DNA from: Tsukamurella sp. TY48
GTDB lineage: Bacteria > Actinomycetota > Actinomycetes > Mycobacteriales > Mycobacteriaceae
Assembly: GCF_019656655.1 (NCBI RefSeq)
Contig: NZ_BPMV01000001.1
Coordinates: forward strand, 2,852,001-2,916,000
Direction of reading: 5' to 3'
Length of the DNA: 64,000 nt
This document shows positions 7,244-27,283 of this stretch, in pieces (within the stretch, counting starts at the first letter, position 1; each line of letters begins with the position of its first letter). The notes beneath the pieces were generated by a model that was given only the letters and a program-made list of their open reading frames with translations, was not told the DNA's origin and did no database searches. Position numbers and translations under genes: made by a program.

Positions 7244-8662
7244 ATGAATCGCAAGGCCAGCTCCATCACCGCCATCGTCGCCGCGGCCGCCGTCGCCGCG
7301 CTCCCCGTCTCCGGCGCCGTTGCACAGACCGCCGCGCCTGCGGCTGTCGCGCTGTCCGCTCAGGCGGCACCCGCCGCTGTAACACCTGCCGCCGTGATCA
7401 AGAACGTTGCGGCCACTACTGGTGCAGCTGCCCAGAGCGTAAGACTGGCACCGCTCGTCGTCGTCACCGATCAGGCAGGCCAGGCGCCTTCTGTGCAGAA
7501 GGCTGCCGCCGACGCGCCGGCGCCGACTCCGATCGCGCTTCCTGATGTTCCGAAGGAAGTCACCGATGCGCTCAACATCGCAGGCTTGCCCGTCGCCCTC
7601 GTGTGGCGGGTCGTGCAGACCGCCAACGGCATCTACACGGTTTGGTACAAGGCTCTCAATACGATCCCCGATGCCCTCCTCAAGGGCCAGTTCGGTCAGA
7701 TTCCGTCGCTGTTCACCGGCGCGATCAATGACTCTCTGACCTGGATCGCGACGGGTGCGGGTCCCAAGAAGGCGGAGACCCCCGCAACGGCGACGGCGCC
7801 GACCGCACCGACCGCTGAACTTCCTAAGGTCACCGTGCCGGACGTCATCACCGACGGCCTGAACGTGCTCGGCCTCCCGGTGCAAGCGGCGTGGGCGACC
7901 TTCCAGACGGGCGTCAAGGTCTACACGAACATCTACGGCCTCCAGTCGTCCATCCCCAACGCGATCATCAAGGGCCAGTGGGGCGATGTGCCCAACCTGA
8001 TCGTCAAGGCGATCAGCGACTCCATTTCCGCGGTAGTCGCCCTTCCGGTCAGTATCGCTACCTCGGCGACCACCTCCATCAATAAGCTGATCGCGGACCT
8101 CACGCCGAAGCCGGCTGCGGCAACGGCGAAGTCGGTCGACACCGTGAGCTCGGTGGCTCCGGCGAGCGCGGATGTCACGGCTGTCTCCACGTCGGCCGCT
8201 GATAACGCGGCAAAGAGCGGGGCCGTCGCGGTCGACACGAAGGCCGCCTCCCCGGCGACCAAGGCTCCCGAGACGACGGCCTCGGAGACGAAGGCCCCCG
8301 AGATCAAGACCCCGGAGACGAAGACGCCGGAGACGAAGACGCCGGAGACGAAGACGCCGGAGACGAAGACGCCGGAGACGAAGACGCCGGAGACGAAGAC
8401 GCCGGAGACGAAGACGCCGGAGACCAAGACCTCGGAGACCAAGACCTCGGAGACGAAGGCCTCGGAGTCTGCGACGTCCGGCTCCACCGCCGGCGCGACG
8501 AGCGATGCGGGTGCCTCGGCGGGGGCCACCGAGAAGGCGGGTTCGGCCTCCGAGAAGTCGACCGGCTCGTCGTCGAGCTCGCAGAGCACGGGCTCGTCGA
8601 GTTCCTCGTCCGATTCGTCTTCGTCCGCGAGTGGATCGTCGTCGGAGTCCACGAAGAACTGA
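7244..8662 (+). CDS. Secreted two-repeat protein with TPETK tandem repeats and Ser-rich tail
   Basis: I do not recognise this 472-residue protein. It has a signal peptide ending near AVA|QT (residue 27), an Ala-rich linker, then two related segments of about 70 residues beginning LPDVPKEVTDALNIAGLPV and VPDVITDGLNVLGLPVQAAW. Each continues with a WxxxQTxxxxYTxxY pattern and IPxAxxKGQxGxxPxL. The C-terminal part is disordered: eight TPETK units, two TSETK units, then a Ser-rich tail. The tail resembles wall-spanning or surface-exposed stalks. ATG 7244 has GAGGGA upstream and directly precedes the signal peptide, so it is preferred over the frame opening at 7190. It lies between two porin pairs in the same orientation; a porin-associated envelope role is only a guess. 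Confidence 0.8.
   Translation: MNRKASSITAIVAAAAVAALPVSGAVAQTAAPAAVALSAQAAPAAVTPAAVIKNVAATTGAAAQSVRLAPLVVVTDQAGQAPSVQKAAADAPAPTPIALPDVPKEVTDALNIAGLPVALVWRVVQTANGIYTVWYKALNTIPDALLKGQFGQIPSLFTGAINDSLTWIATGAGPKKAETPATATAPTAPTAELPKVTVPDVITDGLNVLGLPVQAAWATFQTGVKVYTNIYGLQSSIPNAIIKGQWGDVPNLIVKAISDSISAVVALPVSIATSATTSINKLIADLTPKPAAATAKSVDTVSSVAPASADVTAVSTSAADNAAKSGAVAVDTKAASPATKAPETTASETKAPEIKTPETKTPETKTPETKTPETKTPETKTPETKTPETKTPETKTSETKTSETKASESATSGSTAGATSDAGASAGATEKAGSASEKSTGSSSSSQSTGSSSSSSDSSSSASGSSSESTKN
8309..8458 (+). repeat. Tandem 15-bp repeats encoding TPETK/TSETK
   Basis: Ten in-frame 15-bp units lie end to end. The first, third-base-variant unit starts at 8309; units two to seven (8324-8413) are perfect copies of ACGCCGGAGACGAAG; the eighth ends 8428; two TSETK variants follow to 8458. 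Perfect arrays of this kind change copy number by slippage or recombination, in frame. Confidence 0.95.
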
Positions 8663-8997
8663 TCCGACATCAGCAAACGAGCAGCGCATACCCGCTCCGG
8701 GTGTGCGCTGCTCGTCTCTTTGTGGGACATCCGTCCGGGAAATCTCGGGCGGAGCTGCGCCAAGTGGTTCAGATACGTCCGTGTTTCACATCGCAAAGTG
8801 TCCGGGCTCACACCTCTCTTGTGTTAGGTTTCGCCTCACCCACAGTGTTGAGGTGACGGTGCCGCACGACCTGCGCGCATCGGTGGATCGCCCGGCGAAG
8901 CGCAGTCGCCGTGCTCGGCGACATCCATTCGTCACCGCCGCCCGTGGGTAATCCGGACGTGAGGGATCCGGTACTAACAGGTGAGGTGGAGACGGTT
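8663..8997 (+). promoter_or_regulatory. 335-bp spacer: terminator, then upstream region of porin A2
   Basis: After the terminator at 8677-8715 no gene is visible. The rest presumably holds the A2-B2 promoter. TTAGGTTTCGCCTCACC near 8825 loosely resembles a DtxR-type half site, and GGTGGAG at 8986-8991 is the likely ribosome-binding site for A2. I could not pick a convincing -10/-35 pair. Confidence 0.4.
8677..8715 (+). terminator. Strong terminator after the TPETK-repeat gene
   Basis: Arms 8677-8694 and 8698-8715 form an 18-bp stem with one G.T pair and a 3-nt loop, followed by CTCTTTG. Confidence 0.85.
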
Positions 8998-9645
8998 TTG
9001 AGAATCGCCGGATGGAAGACAGGCGGCGTACTCGCCGCGACGGCCGCGGTCGCGGTGCTCTCGGCGCCCGCGGCGAGCGCGGGTCCGCTGCCGAGTGGTG
9101 AGCGGGTTGTTCCGGCGCCGGATGGTTGGTCGGTGGTGTTGAAGTCGTCCGGTAATTCGGTGGCGATTCAGCCGTCGATGGCTACTCCGCAGTCGCGGAC
9201 GGCGTGGGTTTCCACGAATGGTGCGGTCACGGTGAAGGCTCCTGCGGACGCGAAGATCGAGGGCAAGCTCGGTGTCGGTCTGGTTGTGGGGTGTCAGTTC
9301 CCGGGGCAGATCGGTGGCGGTATCGATGTTTCGGGTCCGTCGGCGTCGCTGGGGATGACTGGTCCGGGTGTCGGTCTGGGTGGTGTTGGTGCCAACCTGG
9401 GTATTCCGTTGACTCCGGGTGCGACGTCGAGTGTGACGGGTTTCGCGCGTGGTGATCAGCCGGGTTCGATCGATTCGATCAAGTTCGCCAAGGCTGGTAC
9501 GTACAACGTGGCGATCAAGGATCACAACGTCGATATCAAGTTCTGCTCGGGTTATGCGCAGGCGCGTGTGGTGACCTGGGTGGAGATCAAGGGTGGCAAT
9601 CGTATTCAGGGTTTCCTGTACGGCGCCCCCTTCTCCCTGGGCTGA
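8998..9645 (+). CDS. MspA-family porin, type A (copy A2)
   Basis: The mature protein is identical to A1, and from 9078 to 9635 I find no DNA difference from A1 at 5742-6299. Signal peptides, upstream regions and the last few bases differ. I place the start at TTG 8998, giving a 215-residue precursor with signal peptide MRIAGWKTGG... cut after AASA and a GGTGGAG ribosome-binding site six bases upstream. GTG 8986 is the alternative. A TTG start could lower its translation relative to A1. It precedes B2 by 58 bp. Confidence 0.88.
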   Translation: MRIAGWKTGGVLAATAAVAVLSAPAASAGPLPSGERVVPAPDGWSVVLKSSGNSVAIQPSMATPQSRTAWVSTNGAVTVKAPADAKIEGKLGVGLVVGCQFPGQIGGGIDVSGPSASLGMTGPGVGLGGVGANLGIPLTPGATSSVTGFARGDQPGSIDSIKFAKAGTYNVAIKDHNVDIKFCSGYAQARVVTWVEIKGGNRIQGFLYGAPFSLG

Positions 9646-9703
9646 CCGAAACTCCCGCTCGCGTCCGTGAGGGCGCGAAACCGATTCTCACAAGGATGAA
9701 TTC

Positions 9704-10414
9704 ATGAAGAAGCTTGCGATGCGCGGTGCCGCCGCGACTGCCGCCGCCGGCGTCCTGTGCGGTGCGATCGCCGTCAGCCCCGCCGCCGCCGATACTTTCA
9801 TTCCCCTGGGGGTGTCGACCACCACGCAGAAGGTGGGCGATGCCAACATCACCGTGACCGTCAAGGATCACTCGGCGCGTCTGTCGCCGGGTATGGTCGC
9901 CCTGCCCACCACTCGCAACGCGTGGGTGTCGGGCAATGTGTCCGCGAAGATCGACGGCAAGGGTGCGAGTGGCGGCTCGATCGCAGCCGGGTACGCCGTG
10001 GGTTGCCAGGTCGATGTGGGCGCTGCTCAGGTCAACCTCGGTGCCAAGGCGGGGATCAACGACGCGAACGGCAATGTGCTGTCCCCCTCGGGCTACACGG
10101 GTGCGCCTTCGGTGTCGGGTTCGACTGGTGGCAGCCTGAAGCTCGCTGCCGGCAGCATCGGTACGCAGATGCTGACCTACGACCGCGCTACCTGGCCCTC
10201 CCCGGGCGACGAGTTCGCCCCCGACTGGGCGGAGCCGAGCACCGGGTTCAAGTTCACCGGCGCGAACGGGTCGCTGAGCTTCCAGGATCAGACCATCGGT
10301 GTGGACGGCTGTGCCGGTTACGCTCAGGCGAAGTTCTTCGCCAAGGTCAAGGCCAAGGTGGGGAACACCGAGGGCTACGTGATCCTCTGGGGCAAGCCCT
10401 TCTCGCTGGGCTGA
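9704..10414 (+). CDS. MspA-family porin, type B (copy B2)
   Basis: The 236-residue protein is nearly identical to B1 in the mature part, differing in a short loop (NDANGNVLSPSGYTG against NDKNGNVVDSTGYVG) and DEFAPDW against DEVSPDW. The signal peptide is diverged. Start ATG has CAAGGA upstream. DNA identity with B1 comes in long perfect runs interrupted by scattered, mostly synonymous changes, so the B pair is less homogenised than the A pair. A strong hairpin follows at 10435. Confidence 0.9.
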   Translation: MKKLAMRGAAATAAAGVLCGAIAVSPAAADTFIPLGVSTTTQKVGDANITVTVKDHSARLSPGMVALPTTRNAWVSGNVSAKIDGKGASGGSIAAGYAVGCQVDVGAAQVNLGAKAGINDANGNVLSPSGYTGAPSVSGSTGGSLKLAAGSIGTQMLTYDRATWPSPGDEFAPDWAEPSTGFKFTGANGSLSFQDQTIGVDGCAGYAQAKFFAKVKAKVGNTEGYVILWGKPFSLG

Positions 10415-10733
10415 GACCCTGCGTGATCGCCGAACGGGGCGGCATCCGGATCACCCCGGATGCCGCCCCGCGGCGTTTCCGTGCCGCCCCGGATGTGTCG
10501 GTTCTCTCAGGGAAATGGCACGAAATGTTAAGACTGCGGCAAACTGTTAAATCAGCGTTACCGAACGGCCCCTTCCCGGAATCTTCATGTTAGCTTTGTC
10601 GTCACTACCGCTCCCGGGTGCAGGCAAGCCCTTGAACTGCGCAGATGCGACATTTCGGCCATCGCGAAGCGAAACTCGCGTCTCTGCTGCGTTGCCACCC
10701 GGGCCGGACCGGCGGTGCTGAAAGGAACTCGGA
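10415..10733 (+). promoter_or_regulatory. 319-bp spacer: terminator and B3 upstream region
   Basis: It holds the B2 terminator (10435-10470), then an AT-richer stretch with GTTAA at 10527 and 10546 and GTTAC at 10557. The last two are 11 bp apart, as in OmpR-family direct repeats. A CATGTTAGCTTT block near 10590 could hold a -10. No gene is visible. Confidence 0.4.
10435..10470 (+). terminator. Terminator after porin B2
   Basis: Perfect 15-bp arms at 10435-10449 and 10456-10470 with a 6-nt loop. A GTTT follows at 10474. Confidence 0.85.
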
Positions 10734-11453
10734 ATGTCGTCTCATCTCGTTCGCAAGGCGGCCGTGGGAGCTATTGCAGCCACGGCCACCGTTGGACTGC
10801 TCGGACCGGTCGCCACCGCGGGCGCCGACACCGTCATCCCCGTGCGCAACGCCAGCGCAACCACGAAGATCGGCTCCGGCGGCTCGCTGACCGTCACGGT
10901 CAAGCAGCAGACGGCCCGCTTGTCGCCGGGCATGGTGGCCCTGCCGACCACGCGCAACGCCTGGGTGTCCGGCGTGGTCAGCGCCAAGATCGACGGTGCC
11001 GACCCGAGCGGTGGCTCGATCGAGGCCGGGTATGCCGTGGGTTGCCAGGTCGATGTGGGTAGTGCGAACGTCAATCTGGGCGCTTCGGCAGGCGTCAACA
11101 ACGACAGCGGAAACATCATTGACAGCACGGGGTACGTCGGCGCTCCGTCGGTCAAGGGCACTACTGGTGGTTCGATTTCGCTCGCTGCCGGTTCGATCGG
11201 CACGCAGTCGCTGACCTATGACCGCGCCACCTGGCCGAAGCCCGGCGACGAAGTGGCCCCGGACTGGTACGCGCCCGCCACCGATTTCGCGTTCGACGGC
11301 GCCTCGGGCGGCTTCACCTTCACTGATCAGACCATCGGTGTCGACGGCTGCGCCGGCTACGCACAGGCCCGCCTGTACGTGATCGTCAAGGGCACCGTCG
11401 GCAATTCCAAGGGCCGCCTGGTCCTGTGGGGTGACACGTTCACCCTCGGCTGA
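10734..11453 (+). CDS. MspA-family porin, type B, diverged copy (B3)
   Basis: The 239-residue precursor has a signal peptide cut near AGA|DT and the type B blocks AGYAVGCQVDVG, DRATWPKPGDE and VDGCAGYAQARLY. It is clearly more diverged from B1/B2 than they are from each other and has no type A partner. AAAGGAAC precedes the ATG at good spacing. It probably has its own promoter in the 319-bp spacer and ends at a double hairpin shared with convergent mscL. It may be a differently regulated subunit or a B-only channel. Confidence 0.9.
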   Translation: MSSHLVRKAAVGAIAATATVGLLGPVATAGADTVIPVRNASATTKIGSGGSLTVTVKQQTARLSPGMVALPTTRNAWVSGVVSAKIDGADPSGGSIEAGYAVGCQVDVGSANVNLGASAGVNNDSGNIIDSTGYVGAPSVKGTTGGSISLAAGSIGTQSLTYDRATWPKPGDEVAPDWYAPATDFAFDGASGGFTFTDQTIGVDGCAGYAQARLYVIVKGTVGNSKGRLVLWGDTFTLG

Positions 11454-11458
11454 GCTGC

Positions 11459-11484
11459 GTTCAGCGGGCCACAGACCGCTGAAC
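11459..11484 (+). terminator. First of two hairpins after porin B3
   Basis: Arms GTTCAGCGG (11459-11467) and CCGCTGAAC (11476-11484) are perfect, with an 8-nt loop. Confidence 0.6.
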
Positions 11485-11489
11485 GTGAG

Positions 11490-11518
11490 AAGGGCGGCCC
11501 CGCTGCGGGGGCCGCCCT
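11490..11518. terminator. Bidirectional terminator between porin B3 and mscL
   Basis: Perfect 12-bp arms at 11490-11501 and 11507-11518 lie between convergent genes, so it can serve both strands. Confidence 0.8.
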
Positions 11519-11541
11519 TCGTCGTTTCCGGACCGTGCCGG

Positions 11542-11991
11542 CTACTGCTGCTTCGGCTGCGTGGGGAACTGGCCCGTGGGCGGAAGCGCCGCGTGCGCGC
11601 CGCCCTGAGCCGCACCGGCCTGCGAGGCGAGCAGGTCGCGGATCTCCACCAGCACGTCCACCTCGTCCTCGGTGGCCGCGCTGCCGGCGCGGTTCTTCAG
11701 CGTCTCGTAGGGCAGGATCAGCACGAAGTACACCACCGCCGCCACCAGGATGAAGTTGATCCCCGCGGTGATCACGGCGCCGAGGTCGACCGTGGTGGCG
11801 GGAACGCCCTTCTTGATCTCCCAGGCGAGGCCCTGCACGCTGTCGCCGCCACCGATCGAGGCGATGAGCGGCTGCACGATGTGTTCGGTGAACGCGGTGA
11901 CGATGGCGGTGAACGCGGCACCGACCACGACGGCGACGGCCAAGTCGAGCACGTTGCCTTTGAGGAGAAAGTCTTTGAAGCCCTTGAGCAT
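11542..11991 (-). CDS. mscL: MscL, large-conductance mechanosensitive channel
   Basis: The 149-residue protein begins MLKGFKDFLLKGNVLDLAVAV, the amphipathic N-terminal helix and first pore helix of MscL. The second helix (GAVITAGINFILVAAVVYFVLIL) and an acidic, charged cytoplasmic helix (TEDEVDVLVEIRDLL) follow. Pentameric MscL opens under membrane tension to release solutes after hypo-osmotic shock. AAAGGATGG upstream supports the start. It is slightly larger than E. coli MscL through a Pro/Gln-rich C-terminal tail. In M. tuberculosis mscL likewise lies opposite the mprAB-pepD-moaB2 genes. Confidence 0.97.
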   Translation of the reverse strand: MLKGFKDFLLKGNVLDLAVAVVVGAAFTAIVTAFTEHIVQPLIASIGGGDSVQGLAWEIKKGVPATTVDLGAVITAGINFILVAAVVYFVLILPYETLKNRAGSAATEDEVDVLVEIRDLLASQAGAAQGGAHAALPPTGQFPTQPKQQ

Positions 11992-12049
11992 TGCTGTCCA
12001 TCCTTTGCGATTTCGTAACCTGTGTTACGCGTGAGGCAACTCTGCAGAA

Positions 12050-15442: not shown

Positions 15443-15502
15443 CCGCCCATATTACCGCGTAGTTAGCACTCCGACGAGTCGAGTGCCAACGGTGTGAGCG
15501 GA

Positions 15503-15508
15503 TACGAT
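15503..15508 (+). promoter_or_regulatory. -10 box TACGAT, leaderless-type promoter of a tetR gene
   Basis: TACGAT ends six bases before ATG 15515. This favours ATG 15515 over the in-frame GTG at 15494, which would lie upstream of the box. Confidence 0.6.
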
Positions 15509-15514
15509 ACCGGT

Positions 15515-16099
15515 ATGACGGTTCCCTCGGCTGCGCACATCGGCGCTCAGCGAACGCCGTCGCCGGCACGTCGGATCGTGGAGGCGGCGCGCGAGGTGAT
15601 CGCGGCGAACGGCATCCCCGGCGTCAGCATGGACCAGGTGGCCAAACAGGCCCACGTCTCCCGCAGCACGCTGTACCGGATCTTCCCCAACCGCGACCAG
15701 CTGATCGCGCGGGTGGTGGCCATCGAGATCCGCACCCTGCGCCGCCGGCTCGACAAGACGATCGTCGGGTTCACGCCGCAGCAGACCCTGGTGGAGGTGT
15801 TCGTGCTCAGCATCGAACAGGCCGCCGCCAACCTCGCCGTGTCCAAGGTGCTGGCCGCGGAACCGGAGTACTTCCTGCGCATCCCCCGGGGGGTGTGGGA
15901 CCTGCTGATCCAGGGCATCGTGATCCGGCTGCGCAATTCGGGTGCCGAGCAGGACTACGCCGATCTCTGCTCCGTGACCGACCTCATGCTCCGGGTCACG
16001 GGCTCCCTGCTGTCCAATCCGCCCACCGGCCTGGACGTCAGTGATTCGGCGGCGCTGCGTGCCTACGGTGAGCGCTACATCGCGCGTCTCCTGATCTAG
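15515..16099 (+). CDS. TetR-family transcriptional regulator
   Basis: The 194-residue protein has a typical TetR helix-turn-helix (about 12-60: RRIVEAAREVIAANGIPGVS, DQVAKQAHVSRSTLYRIFPN) and an all-helical ligand domain. No target can be named. The start at ATG 15515 is chosen because the -10 box TACGAT lies six bases upstream. The stop at 16099 is directly followed by the left palindromic element of the endonuclease locus. Confidence 0.88.
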   Translation: MTVPSAAHIGAQRTPSPARRIVEAAREVIAANGIPGVSMDQVAKQAHVSRSTLYRIFPNRDQLIARVVAIEIRTLRRRLDKTIVGFTPQQTLVEVFVLSIEQAAANLAVSKVLAAEPEYFLRIPRGVWDLLIQGIVIRLRNSGAEQDYADLCSVTDLMLRVTGSLLSNPPTGLDVSDSAALRAYGERYIARLLI

Positions 16100-16102
16100 C
16101 CC

Positions 16103-16177
16103 CGCGAAACTGTCGCCCAGCGGCGTTGTGAGGACGTAGTGGCTGCGTAGGCCCTGTGGAGAACAGTTTCGCGACAG
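16103..16177. repeat. Left palindromic element flanking the DUF559 endonuclease gene
   Basis: Perfect 11-bp inverted arms CGCGAAACTGT (16103-16113) and ACAGTTTCGCG (16163-16173) enclose about 49 nt. The left shoulder GAAACTGTCGCsCAGCGGC and the right shoulder GAACAGTTTCGCGACAG recur in the element at 17081-17152 with 18/19 and 17/17 matches. CCTGTGGA (16153) and TCCACAGG (16187) form a further dyad around the right shoulder. Confidence 0.9.
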
Positions 16178-16244
16178 AGGCATTCATCCACAGGCCGCCT
16201 CCTGGTCGGCAGGTTCCGTCCGTGGCATCGCGCACCCTGCTCGC

Positions 16245-17102
16245 ATGGACATCGAACGGGCCGTGCAGCAGATCGCGGCAGTCGACGGCGGAGTGGTCTC
16301 GCGGCAGATGCTGCTCTCCTGCGGCGTCGCGCCCGCGGACATCGAGCACGCCGTGCGGCACCGCCATCTCACGGTGGTCCGCCGCGGCTGGTACGACGCG
16401 GGGACTTCCGATCCGGCGGTGGTGGCAGCGGTGCGATCCGGCGGCGTGGTCACGTGCATCAGTGCACTCGCCCGTCGCGACGGGGTGTGGAGCGTGCCCG
16501 CCGCGCGCCTGCACATTCGCCGGTCCCGGCATCTTCGCGCGCAGGGGCAATGCTCGGCCTACCGGCCGCTGGCGACTCCGCGGCGGGCGGTCGATCCCAT
16601 TCCGGAGGCACTGGCCTGCGCGGCTCGGTGTGCATCGGAGGAGGATTTCGTCGCGATCTGCGATTCCGTGCTCCGGCGGCCGGGGTGGTCCGTCGGCGAC
16701 GTCGCTCCGTTGCTGGAGGGCGCGCCGCTGCGCGTGCAGCGGTTGCTGGGGGAGGTCGATCCGCGCGCGGACTCCGGCATCGAGTCGCTGGTGCGGTTCC
16801 GTTTGCGGCGCCGCGGTATTCGGTTGCGCACTCAGGTGCGAATACCCGATGTCGGCACGGTGGACATGCTGGTCGGGGACCGGTTGATCATCGAGTGCGA
16901 TGGGAAGCAGCACCACCTCGGACAGCAGTTCGGGAAGGACCGCTGGCGGGACCTGGTCTCGGTGGCGGACGGCTACCTCGTGATGCGATTGAGCTATGCC
17001 CACGTGGTGCATCAGTGGGACGAGGTGTTGCCGTTCATCCGTGCCGTCATCCGCCGCCGCTCGCACCGAGATCGCTGCGGGAAACTGTCGCGCAGCGGCT
17101 GA
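16245..17102 (+). CDS. AbiEi-like winged-helix plus DUF559/Vsr-type endonuclease fusion
   Basis: The 285-residue protein has an N-terminal AbiEi-type winged helix (about 5-50, VSRQMLLSCGVAPADIEHAV then VVRRGWYDAG) and a C-terminal PD-(D/E)XK nuclease of the DUF559/very-short-patch-repair type: Glu in GIESLVRF, Asp in VGTVDMLVGD, then IIECDGKQHH and a KDRWRDLVSVADGY helix. Such proteins are often annotated as type IV antitoxin-like, but no AbiEii nucleotidyltransferase toxin is beside it, so it stands alone. Its last codons (GKLSRSG) are encoded by the right palindromic element, and the left element lies 67 bp before its start. The start ATG has no clear ribosome-binding site. Function is unknown; a mobile or repeat-associated nuclease is plausible. 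Confidence 0.85.
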   Translation: MDIERAVQQIAAVDGGVVSRQMLLSCGVAPADIEHAVRHRHLTVVRRGWYDAGTSDPAVVAAVRSGGVVTCISALARRDGVWSVPAARLHIRRSRHLRAQGQCSAYRPLATPRRAVDPIPEALACAARCASEEDFVAICDSVLRRPGWSVGDVAPLLEGAPLRVQRLLGEVDPRADSGIESLVRFRLRRRGIRLRTQVRIPDVGTVDMLVGDRLIIECDGKQHHLGQQFGKDRWRDLVSVADGYLVMRLSYAHVVHQWDEVLPFIRAVIRRRSHRDRCGKLSRSG

Positions 17103-17152
17103 GCGCGGACACTATGGCCGCAGCGGCCCGCTCAGGAACAGTTTCGCGACAG
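17081..17152. repeat. Right palindromic element, overlapping the ends of two convergent genes
   Basis: Three nested stems are visible: GAAACTGT/ACAGTTTC (17081-17088, 17138-17145), CTGAGCG/CGCTCAG (17099-17105, 17129-17135) and GCCGC-A-GCGGC (17117-17127). The element supplies the final codons and stops of both the endonuclease gene (stop 17102) and the cyclo-ligase gene (stop 17132), and may also terminate both transcripts. Its shoulders match the element at 16103-16177. Confidence 0.9.
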
Positions 17153-17713
17153 CTCGATAAGTCCGGACGGTGTGAGGGCGGCGTGCACGGGCACGTCGGT
17201 GGGCTCGGCGGGCAGCTCGTCGACCAGTTCGTGGTCGTAGACCACCGCGATCAGCCGGGCGCCGCCGCGCAGCGACCGGTCGTAGTACCCCGCCCCGCGG
17301 CCGAGCCGGACCCCGCTGCGCGAGACCCCCACTGCGGGGAGCAGCACGGTATCCACCGAGGTCAGGGCGTCGGCGCCGAGTCGCGGCCCCGGTGGCTCCA
17401 GCAGCCCGAAGGGGCCCGCGGCCAGTTCGCCCCGGTACACCGACCAATCGAGGGCGCCCGGTGTGGCGGGTGTCACCGGCAGCAGCACCTCGCCGCCGAT
17501 CGCGTCCAGCATCGCGAGGCTCCCGGGCTCCGCGCCCACGGGCACGTAGGCCGCCACCCGGGCACCCAGGTCGAGCCCCGCCACCAGCTCCGATAGCGCC
17601 CTGGCCGCGGCCTCTCGCTCGCTCCTGCCGAGGGCCGCGCGCTGCTCTCGCAGGCGCGCCCTCAAGGCCCGCTTCTCCGCCGCCGTACCGGGGTCACAGC
17701 TCATGGAGTCCAT
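17132..17713 (-). CDS. 5-formyltetrahydrofolate cyclo-ligase
   Basis: The 193-residue enzyme (about 199 if the TTG at 17731 is used) converts 5-formyl-THF to 5,10-methenyl-THF with ATP. Family motifs are the N-terminal KRALRARLREQR helix, VLLPAVGVSRSGVRLGRGAGYYDR near residue 140 and the C-terminal YDHELVDELP...DVPV. It is the homologue of Rv0992c and is divergent from galU as in M. tuberculosis. The last residues (ELSRNCS) are encoded by the palindromic element, so its natural C-terminus was probably remodelled by that sequence. Confidence 0.9.
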   Translation of the reverse strand: MDSMSCDPGTAAEKRALRARLREQRAALGRSEREAAARALSELVAGLDLGARVAAYVPVGAEPGSLAMLDAIGGEVLLPVTPATPGALDWSVYRGELAAGPFGLLEPPGPRLGADALTSVDTVLLPAVGVSRSGVRLGRGAGYYDRSLRGGARLIAVVYDHELVDELPAEPTDVPVHAALTPSGLIELSRNCS

Positions 17714-17739
17714 ACTCACATCGTTACCCAAGCGTGACC

Positions 17740-25255: not shown

Positions 25256-26230
25256 ATGACGCAGCCGCCGAACTACCCCGGCGACAACCAGGGCGGCTTC
25301 CCGCCGCCGCAGGATCCGCAGCAGCCGGGCGGCCAGCCGGGGCAGGGATTCCCGCCCCCGCCGCAGCAGCCCGCTCCCGGCTTCCCGCCGCCGCAGGGCG
25401 CGCAGGGCTTCCCACCGCCGCAGGGTGCGCAGGGTTTCCCGCCGCCGCAGCCGGGGCAGGGCTACCCGCCCCCGCCCGCCGGTGGCTACCCGCCCGTGCA
25501 GGGCGGCTACGGTGCCCCGTACGGCGGCGGCCCGCAGAAGTTCAACCTGGGTAACGGCTTCTCCTGGGCCTGGAACAAGTTCACCAAGAATGCGCTCGCG
25601 CTGATCGTTCCCGTCATCGTGTACGGCATCATCCTCGGCGTCATCGCCGGCGTCGGCTACTCGCTGGTGTACTCGAACGGCCTCGACAGCGTGACCACCG
25701 ATGACTCGGGGAACATGACGGCGGCCCTGAACCAGACGGGCACAGTCGAAGCGATCATCTTCTCGTTGATTCTGACGGTGGTCGCCTACCTCATCACCGC
25801 TGCGTACGTCTCGGGGCTGTTCGATATCGCCGACGGCAAGCAGGTGGGCATCGGCTCGTTCTTCAAGCCCCGCAATGCGGGCCAGGCCATCCTGACTGCC
25901 GCGGTGCTCGGCCTCGTGGCCGGGCTCGTCGGTTCGATCCCCTACGTGGGCTTCATCTTCCAGATCGTGGTCGGGTTCATCGCCACCTTTGCGATCCTCG
26001 TGGTCGTCGACCGCGGCGTCTCGCTGGCCGATGGCGTGAAGCAGGGCCTCGATGTGATCAAGCGTGACGTGGGCAATTCGATTCTCGTCGTCGTTGTCGC
26101 CGGTCTTCTCGTCCTGGTCGGATCGATGTGCCTCGTCGGCTCGCTCATCGCTGTTCCGGTGGCGGGCCTGCTGCTGGTGAACGCCTACCGCCTGATCTCG
26201 GGCGGCCAGGTGGCTCCGGCCACCCCGTAG
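25256..26230 (+). CDS. Pro/Gly/Gln-rich membrane protein, tandem paralogue 1
   Basis: The 324-residue protein has a disordered cytoplasmic N-terminus of about 90 residues made of GFPPPQ/GYPPP repeats, then a hydrophobic domain of about five to six helices (SWAWNKFTKNALALIVPVIV first). Related actinobacterial proteins carry this GYPPP-plus-membrane-domain plan; their function is not established. GACGGAGGAGAC precedes the ATG. The neighbour at 26354 is a paralogue with the same first 14 residues. Confidence 0.82.
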   Translation: MTQPPNYPGDNQGGFPPPQDPQQPGGQPGQGFPPPPQQPAPGFPPPQGAQGFPPPQGAQGFPPPQPGQGYPPPPAGGYPPVQGGYGAPYGGGPQKFNLGNGFSWAWNKFTKNALALIVPVIVYGIILGVIAGVGYSLVYSNGLDSVTTDDSGNMTAALNQTGTVEAIIFSLILTVVAYLITAAYVSGLFDIADGKQVGIGSFFKPRNAGQAILTAAVLGLVAGLVGSIPYVGFIFQIVVGFIATFAILVVVDRGVSLADGVKQGLDVIKRDVGNSILVVVVAGLLVLVGSMCLVGSLIAVPVAGLLLVNAYRLISGGQVAPATP

Positions 26231-26353: not shown

Positions 26354-27283
26354 ATGACGCAGCCGCCGAACTACCCCGGCGACAACCAGGGCGGGGTGCC
26401 GCCCCAGGACCCGCAGCAGCCGGGCGGACAGCCGGGGCAGGGGTTCCCTCCGCCGCAGCAGCCCGGACAGGGCTTCCCGCCGCCGCAGGGCGCGCAGGGC
26501 TTCCCGCCTCCGCAGCAGGGTGCCGGTTATCCGCCGCCCGCCGGTGGTTACCCGCCCGCGCCGGGCGGCTACGGCGCCCCGCAGACGCAGTACAGCGTGG
26601 GCGACGCGTTCAGCTGGGCGTGGAACAAGTTCACCAAGAACGCCTGGCCGCTGATCGGTGCCGCGCTGGCCTTCGCCGTCATCATGGCGGTCGTGAGCTC
26701 GCTCGTGTATTGGGTCTTCTCGCTGACGATCACCAACGTGCAGGAGGTCGACTACGACGACGGGTCGGTCGGGTACACCGGCGACCTCACCGCGGGGTCG
26801 TACGTGACGGGCATCATCGGGATCGCGGTGATCGTGTACCTCGCGTTGCTCATCCAGGCCTCGTACACCACCGGACTGTTCGACATCGCGGACGGCCGCA
26901 AGGTCACCGTCGGCTCGTTCTTCAAGCCGCGCAACTTCGGCTCCGCCGCGGGCGCCTCCGTCCTGGTGACGCTGGCGCTGATCGTCGGCTACATCCTCTT
27001 CATCATCCCGGGCATCATCGCCGCCTTCTTCCTGGCGTACTCGGTGCTGTTCGCGGTGGATAAGAACATCGGTGGCGGCGCGGCGCTCAAGGCGAGCTTC
27101 AACGCCGTCAAGGCGAACGCGGGCAACTCGATCCTCACCACCTTCCTCGCGGGTCTGGTCTCGGCCCTGGGCGCGGTGCTCTGCTACGTCGGCGCACTGG
27201 TCACCGGCCCCCTCGGGCAGCTGGTGCAGATCTACGCCTACCGCACCCTCACCGGTGGGCAGGTCGCACCGAAGACGCAGTAG
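26354..27283 (+). CDS. Pro/Gly/Gln-rich membrane protein, tandem paralogue 2
   Basis: The 309-residue protein shares with its neighbour the opening MTQPPNYPGDNQGG, the GFPPPQ-rich N-terminus, the SWAWNKFTKN helix and the GLFDIADG...GSFFKPRN segment. The membrane helices have diverged more. It ends TLTGGQVAPKTQ against LISGGQVAPATP. The ribosome-binding region and first codons are almost identical in DNA to paralogue 1, so a fairly recent duplication or conversion is likely. Confidence 0.82.
   Translation: MTQPPNYPGDNQGGVPPQDPQQPGGQPGQGFPPPQQPGQGFPPPQGAQGFPPPQQGAGYPPPAGGYPPAPGGYGAPQTQYSVGDAFSWAWNKFTKNAWPLIGAALAFAVIMAVVSSLVYWVFSLTITNVQEVDYDDGSVGYTGDLTAGSYVTGIIGIAVIVYLALLIQASYTTGLFDIADGRKVTVGSFFKPRNFGSAAGASVLVTLALIVGYILFIIPGIIAAFFLAYSVLFAVDKNIGGGAALKASFNAVKANAGNSILTTFLAGLVSALGAVLCYVGALVTGPLGQLVQIYAYRTLTGGQVAPKTQ

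Follow-up and report, generated by a model that had tools for sequence, protein, structure and literature searches.

The locus and its paired hairpin elements

The window analysed here, the whole 64,000-nucleotide stretch of DNA from Tsukamurella sp. TY48, contains a compact unit of 1050 bp that consists of two hairpin elements, a leader of 67 nt and a nuclease gene, located between genes for a TetR-type regulator and a 5-formyltetrahydrofolate (5-FTHF) cyclo-ligase. The features are as follows:

15494..16099, + strand: TetR-type regulator, left neighbour (TetR_N, 1.3e-13), used as site anchor for the comparison between species
16103..16177, + strand: upstream hairpin element, 75 nt, with arms CGCGAAACTG / CAGTTTCGCG and core GGACGTAGTGGCTGCG at 16132-16147; matched by model R1 at genome 2868103-2868175
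16245..17102, + strand: stand-alone nuclease gene, 285 aa, assigned from Pfam, profile matches and predicted structure
17078..17152, + strand: downstream hairpin element, with core GGACACTATGGCCGCA at 17107-17122; matched by model R1 at genome 2869078-2869150
17132..17731, - strand: 5-formyltetrahydrofolate cyclo-ligase, right neighbour, convergent (PF01812, 2.3e-30)

A sequence-only reading of this DNA had placed two matched elements around the gene, and both were recovered, at 16103-16177 and 17078-17152. The coordinates of the first were confirmed, while the second begins 3 nt earlier by alignment than had been proposed (17078, not 17081). The shared left shoulder, GAAACTGTCGCsCAGCGGC (18/19), and right shoulder, GAACAGTTTCGCGACAG (17/17), are as claimed. 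Both elements fold on themselves through GAAACTGT with ACAGTTTC, and they are arranged in direct orientation with a start-to-start distance of 975 bp and 73% identity over 75 nt. The downstream element overlaps the last codons of the nuclease gene as well as the 3' end of the convergent gene. A BLAST search of the 4.37-Mb genome with the first copy matched the second at E=3.5e-6, only these two being listed, and the pair is thus not a product of chance. At three other places in the window (8250-8467, 25357-25475 and 26429-26518) tandem repeats of 15-45 bp were observed, perhaps representing repetitive protein segments.

A predicted winged-helix nuclease

The gene proposed by the earlier reading is present, and its product carries DUF559 above the Pfam cut-off (E=3.3e-7, 30.6 bits, cut-off 20.6) together with a match to MTES_1575 below that family's own cut-off (E=3.8e-6, 27.3 bits, cut-off 38.2). 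Scanning 40 aligned members against Pfam, with E up to 0.1, returned MTES_1575 in 40, DUF559 in 35 and AbiEi_4 in 25; the AbiEi-like winged helix suggested earlier is accordingly seen in these 25 relatives, the window protein itself having no such Pfam call. PADLOC gave weak AbiEi matches to 3/3 proteins, and a relative from T. tyrosinosolvens, 50% identical, is publicly annotated as a type IV toxin-antitoxin antitoxin AbiEi. The claim that no partner toxin is present holds, as the window neighbours are the TetR regulator and the 5-FTHF cyclo-ligase; an AbiE toxin-antitoxin pair was rejected, there being no partner gene in the window. No Y1 (HUH) tyrosine transposase was found among the 13 families listed for the 40 members, and likewise no DDE transposase domain among the Pfam families listed for the window proteins and the 40 members.

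A structure predicted from 40 sequences (pLDDT 93.7, pTM 0.89) is made up of an N-terminal part, followed by a helical middle and, at approximately residues 178-270, a mixed domain at the C-terminus. The N-terminal part of the model is read as a winged helix, and the C-terminal domain is a probable Vsr-like DUF559/MTES_1575 nuclease, its fold being assigned from profile matches in combination with the predicted model. The two significant profile matches to solved structures were 3hrl (6e-5) and 3r3p (9.5e-4), the latter a 'mobile intron protein' whose match spans residues 204-268. The accessible part of one source (PMC3710099) identifies MTES_1575 as a nuclease domain of the Vsr type. Between the orthologs of the window genome (G000), G004 and G008, to which the calculation was limited (four distant DUF559 relatives with poor reading frames being left out), dN/dS of the gene is 0.15-0.26. 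Residues E180, D207, E217, D219, H224 and D232, which we take to be catalytic nuclease residues, are invariant in the 40 sequences. In combination, the dN/dS values and the invariant putative nuclease residues suggest that the gene is under purifying selection, kept and probably active.

Paired elements at other DUF559 loci

Three further relatives are encoded in the window genome, with identities of 51, 45 and 29% to the window protein. The first two have an element-like repeat of other sequence on both sides, as judged by eye (flank-pair scores of 21 and 17, below the cut-off of 24). At the locus of the 29% relative (L006, contig C1, ~2.35 Mb) a 47-nt inverted repeat pair was observed at 1431-1477 / 2452-2498, with 89% complementarity.

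A search of the genus gave flank-pair scores ≥24 at 30/43 loci. A wider scan with one genome per species yielded 80 DUF559 loci, of which 79 could be scored, one flank being too short. Here the cut-off was reached at 50/79 loci vs 2/79 when the flanks were taken from different loci, and at 40/66 loci after removal of 13 Tsukamurella-like rows. Pairs that beat all 100 dinucleotide shuffles were found at 55/79 loci. Mismatched flanks did so in 6/79 cases and random 860-bp intervals in the window in 10/79 (8/79 of the latter scoring ≥24, taken to be caused by tandem repeats in the window), so that beating the shuffles is by itself a loose criterion. The direct score was higher in 27 of the 50 pairs and the inverted score in 22, which is what near-palindromic elements would be expected to give. 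Two of the 50 call for caution, as L142 is not above all shuffles and L202 is of low complexity. The pairs of L004, L005 and L013, which score below 24, were recognised by eye.

Pairs were found in Tsukamurella, Williamsia, Gordonia, Jongsikchunia, Millisia, Smaragdicoccus, Aestuariimicrobium and Herbiconiux, and in one Kitasatospora record, possibly a contaminant. The DUF559 protein of the latter is 94% identical to one from Williamsia muralis, with similar elements (L179, L191), pointing to recent transfer or contamination. A score of 24 was missed by 29/79 loci, including 5/5 loci of Mycobacterium/Mycolicibacterium. The expectation that elements flank other DUF559 genes is hence borne out, with a sequence that differs between gene lineages. 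A single repeat family serving all DUF559 genes was rejected, as the sequences in the genus search are private to each lineage, and the proposed undescribed repeat-associated nuclease element is supported with the correction that each lineage has its own repeat family.

Several further observations were made at these loci. The DUF559 genes of L020, L077, L078 and L080 appear frameshifted or interrupted, and the flank-pair score is nevertheless ≥24 at three of the four loci. Tsukamurella-like DUF559 loci also occur on contigs with the title Acidobacteriaceae bacterium (L144, L147, L186, L197), the record name probably being wrong. The leaders upstream of the DUF559 start (L009, L011, L013, L018, L025, L040 and others) often contain a pair of TCCACA boxes that are separated by ~25-30 bp and enclose a GTACGAAAC-like stretch; one of the boxes resembles what we take to be the DnaA box consensus, and the boxes are possibly a promoter or operator of the nuclease gene.

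Anatomy and covariation of the elements

The search for hairpin spans covered lengths of 60-88 nt, and within this range 83 spans with ≥8/12 arm matches were found, their median length being 73 nt and 66/83 falling at 67-79 nt. The largest population, from Gordonia effusa, consists of copies of ~71 nt in which the outer arms CTGRAAMTGTCCCC / GGGGACAKTTYCAG and a core around GGCGATATAGCGCC are nearly constant, with a middle stem that is highly variable yet often complementary. In most aligned copies the first four bases are ACTG or GCTG and the last four CAGT, CAGC or CAGG, and the flanking bases are hardly conserved past the element. In the flanks of 19 copies inspected by eye, neither a target-site duplication nor an exact junction could be made out.

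Covariation was analysed on 34/37 Gordonia effusa copies (one could not be oriented and two with indels were left out), in which 84% of cells pair. The copies show 57 two-sided changes, vs 42.7 ± 5.1 after shuffling, and a covariation score of 0.161 vs 0.123, with 0/500 shuffles as high in either case. Sliding the partner by 1-3 columns gave 12-30 two-sided cells. Two of the five measures, namely both-side-changed pairs and further pair types, were at the level of the shuffles (293 and 123/500 as high). In the window family two-sided changes were found in 5/17 predicted pairs, and the covariation energy term was ~0. Across families, TGA[AG] occurs in 24/82 arms vs 5.0 expected by shuffling; as the motif was picked after the arms had been seen, this is a hint of a shared degenerate end of the elements.

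Solo copies and their link to the gene lineage

Sites of the window element were sought with a covariance model (R1), which was built from the elements of G000, G004 and G008. Scoring was applied to the best 150 of the roughly 8,000-12,000 candidates that a first look gave in each genome, and the counts are thus lower bounds: at least 8 sites in G000, at least 9 in G004 and at least 16 in G008, a 17th weak match in the last (C2:382856) having been left out since no element was seen there by eye. The window genome has at least 6 solo copies besides the flanking pair, and the pair was on this account rejected as a mere 75-bp target-site duplication. Among 16 genus genomes the orthologous gene is found only in G000, G004 and G008, and strong copies of the element are likewise confined to these three. 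The best 150 candidates of each of the other 13 genomes gave no match in nine and weak matches in four (best E=5e-4), one of the latter adjoining another DUF559 gene; this weakness is partly by construction, given the origin of R1.

The test was therefore repeated with single elements, independently of R1. A search with the Williamsia soli element gave 6 sites in the W. soli genome itself, a further 2 in W. faeni and 0 in 9 others, and one with the Gordonia effusa element gave 37 sites in the genome of that species, 2 of which flank the gene, and 0 in 11 others including four other Gordonia. The element family of G003 is present in 8/16 Tsukamurella genomes; in G001, G014 and G015, which carry it, the relatives found include no gene of the corresponding clade, and elements can thus outlive genes. 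In total, dispersed copies were found for 4/4 element families searched. Solo copies had been asked for by the earlier reading, and those found track the gene lineage.

The arms of the solo copies also follow the gene-flanking ones. Of the 14 solo copies found in G008, 10 have a TTCGC left arm, as do the copies that flank the gene in this genome, and the same position holds TTCGC in 0 of the 13 solo copies found in G000 and G004. Similarly, loci with more similar proteins tend to have more similar elements (Mantel r=0.31, p=0.0002, n=41; limits on arm, span or ORF left 41 of the 50 pairs with score ≥24). The trend derives mostly from protein pairs >50% identical, and neither half of the protein is a clearly better predictor.

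States of shared sites between species

The site between the TetR and cyclo-ligase genes was examined in 15/16 genomes and contains a DUF559 gene in 8, seven of them at the pair cut-off (G005 scores 17). In G003 the gene lies between two copies with 97% identity over 73 nt, and in G001, G014 and G015 the site is occupied by a solo element from the G003 family. No element is present in G013 (12 bp) and G011 (54 bp), and other DNA is found in G006 and G012. The replacing DNA in G006 (L090) is 547 bp long and contains repeated CCATGCG...CGCATGG-like stretches. A tree of 37 of the 43 loci from the genus search splits the proteins of this site by orientation: those of three species with the gene in one direction group together (support 100/100), and apart from them stands a clade of five species with the opposite direction (91/83, within a clade supported at 98/95). 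As two clades in opposite orientations share one short intergenic site, the site is read as having been occupied twice independently by two DUF559 lineages.

At a second site, examined in 14/16 genomes, an element is found in seven, that of G014 belonging to a different family and the others having been recognised by eye. Five genomes have only 5-30 bp here, G004 has a remnant and G001 has 81 bp of unassigned sequence; inspection by eye revealed neither a target-site duplication nor an exact junction. Another compared site was too rearranged for clean junctions. The G004 element at 494693 has a counterpart in the sister species G000 that aligns poorly and is without the element. All 6 solo sites found in G000 are also occupied in G004, one with a rearranged flank, and recent movement is thus not evident there.

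The relatives with element-free sites provide the empty sites that the sequence-only reading had called for, and these comparisons imply past mobility of the elements. In this respect the mobility proposed by that reading is upheld, transposition, binding and cleavage being steps that we infer. The element does not occur only at this locus, it is not widespread without a link to DUF559 genes, and the locus is not always present in relatives. Spread on known plasmids or phages was rejected: four plasmid records (three of them Tsukamurella) and one phage record covering 54% were matched, and a viral-contig pattern scan confirmed none. L356 and two further T. tyrosinosolvens records labelled as plasmids carry DUF559 relatives, and as one relative adjoins a Na+/H+ antiporter gene the plasmid label may be an assembly matter.

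Proposed mechanism and alternative readings

The pairing, privacy and dispersal of the elements emerge directly from comparison, as do the site states, the covariation in one family and the correlation between elements and proteins. By these sequence criteria the window locus would be one member of a system present in several actinobacterial genera. We consider it fairly probable that this is a repeat-nuclease system, in which the nuclease recognises its own hairpins and helps to spread them. The winged helix would bind its cognate element at the outer arms, with the DNA as a duplex, a cruciform or a single-strand hairpin, and the Vsr-like nuclease would cut at or beside it, whereupon repair or strand transfer would copy the hairpin to new places. 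The gene itself would move rarely and be mostly inherited, acting as the single-copy driver of a non-autonomous hairpin population, and deletion between two copies would remove it to leave a solo element. There is perhaps a preference for sites already holding a palindrome, which would explain the repeated use of the same two sites.

It is unlikely, in our estimation, that the elements are instead operators or chromosome-organising sites of a winged-helix protein, which would co-evolve with it without being moved, the pair autoregulating the gene and the solo sites forming a regulon. A winged helix of the AbiEi (antitoxin) type would suit such a role, and orthologous solo sites are kept between species while their arms change with the lineage, as in the TTCGC arms of G008. 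However, a hairpin of ~73 nt whose variable middle stem shows compensatory changes goes beyond what an operator would need, and one element lies downstream of the gene. Copy numbers per genome moreover extend from a few to 37, relatives have empty sites, and the putative nuclease residues show no variation.

The states of the TetR / cyclo-ligase site, which are compatible with gain and loss, would also fit a free-standing homing endonuclease whose targets are alleles without the element-gene-element unit and whose gene enters them through gene conversion, the solo elements being scars of gene loss; a 'mobile intron protein' (3r3p) is, in addition, among the two significant solved-structure matches. 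This reading is nevertheless improbable, since it needs homologous flanks, yet 35 Gordonia effusa solo copies lie away from the gene, and since a whole element, not half a cut site, is found on each side. We give very little credence to the elements being miniature transposons of another enzyme (e.g. an IS200/RAYT-type transposase), with DUF559 genes merely caught between two of them. REP-type hairpins do go with HUH enzymes in the accessible parts of two sources (PMC8266576, PMC3733652), but lineage-specific pairs recur at 50/79 DUF559 loci and Y1 transposase is missing from the 13 families listed for the 40 members. Ordinary transcription terminators or structured intergenic RNAs were rejected as a scarcely credible explanation, for although the downstream hairpin lies between convergent genes, neither window element gave a terminator-like call or an Rfam match, and the sequence is private to the gene lineage.

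Returning to the repeat-nuclease reading, we give even odds to its broadest form, namely that a winged-helix Vsr-like nuclease constitutes a third way of spreading small bacterial palindromes, independent of HUH and DDE transposases, in which its own ~73-nt hairpin is recognised as cruciform or single strand and each gene lineage in many actinobacteria maintains a private, co-evolving population.

Comparison with known systems

The origin and spread of short intergenic palindromes is an old question. REPs have RAYTs; for other palindrome families we know of no driver. MITEs and ERIC-type intergenic palindromes are likewise short dispersed palindromes, whereas the element family described here has a candidate driver gene to which it is linked in both position and evolution.

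The architecture is most directly set beside REPIN/RAYT (REPtron) systems, a resemblance, with a different enzyme, that the earlier reading had pointed out and that was confirmed here: the repeat architecture is alike and no HUH transposase domain was found. In both cases cognate palindromic repeats flank the gene (here the window pair and 50/79 loci), dispersed non-autonomous copies occur in the same genome (4/4 families searched), and enzyme and repeat co-evolve, with hairpins of similar size. The gene is also single-copy and distinct from its relatives, as judged here in the window genome only (51, 45 and 29% identical). For Pseudomonas, E. coli and others, distinct single-copy genes, dispersed repeats and enzyme-repeat co-evolution are described in the accessible part of PMC8266576, and the REP doublets of P. 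fluorescens SBW25 are modelled as 71- and 110-bp segments in that of PMC3116915. The REPIN/RAYT enzyme is, however, an HUH tyrosine transposase, in contrast to the winged helix and Vsr-like nuclease found here. Its repeats have a GTAG foot, in place of which the Gordonia effusa copies have the start and end motifs given above, and each element here is one continuous imperfect hairpin, with ≤37 copies seen vs hundreds in REPIN/RAYT. As the defining HUH transposase was sought and not found, the nuclease system is not a REPIN/RAYT member, despite its similar architecture and behaviour. TIRtrons similarly have a gene flanked by longer palindromic repeats, some from dispersed families, but their enzyme is a TIR-associated tyrosine transposase of the HUH class, according to the accessible text of PMC3733652.

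The Vsr-like homing endonuclease 3r3p shares a Vsr-like domain with conserved acidic and His residues (profile matches, 40 sequences), and differs in that an AbiEi winged helix is added here and whole hairpins lie on both sides. Insertion splitting its own target site, a homing feature, was not found; whole elements lie on both sides of the gene in the window, at the TetR / cyclo-ligase site and among the scored loci. The AbiEi antitoxin of type IV toxin-antitoxin systems has the N-terminal winged helix in common, but in the window there is no adjacent AbiEii toxin gene, and a nuclease domain is present instead. The locus is consequently not a plain homing endonuclease, nor an AbiE pair in the window.

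Among the matches listed in a search of the open-access literature (most subscription papers and bioRxiv preprints lying outside it), no description linking DUF559/MTES_1575 genes to palindromic repeats was seen, and to our knowledge no earlier role is known for stand-alone DUF559 proteins of this type. Nuclease genes recorded publicly as orphan antitoxins or of function unknown can now be matched with their own repeats, which makes recognition, cutting and spreading directly testable. No repeat system known to us has a related enzyme class or, as would probably follow, a related chemistry, and the system would for this reason be new in kind: compared with RAYTs and TIRtrons, it looks like an undescribed way for small repeats to spread in bacteria.
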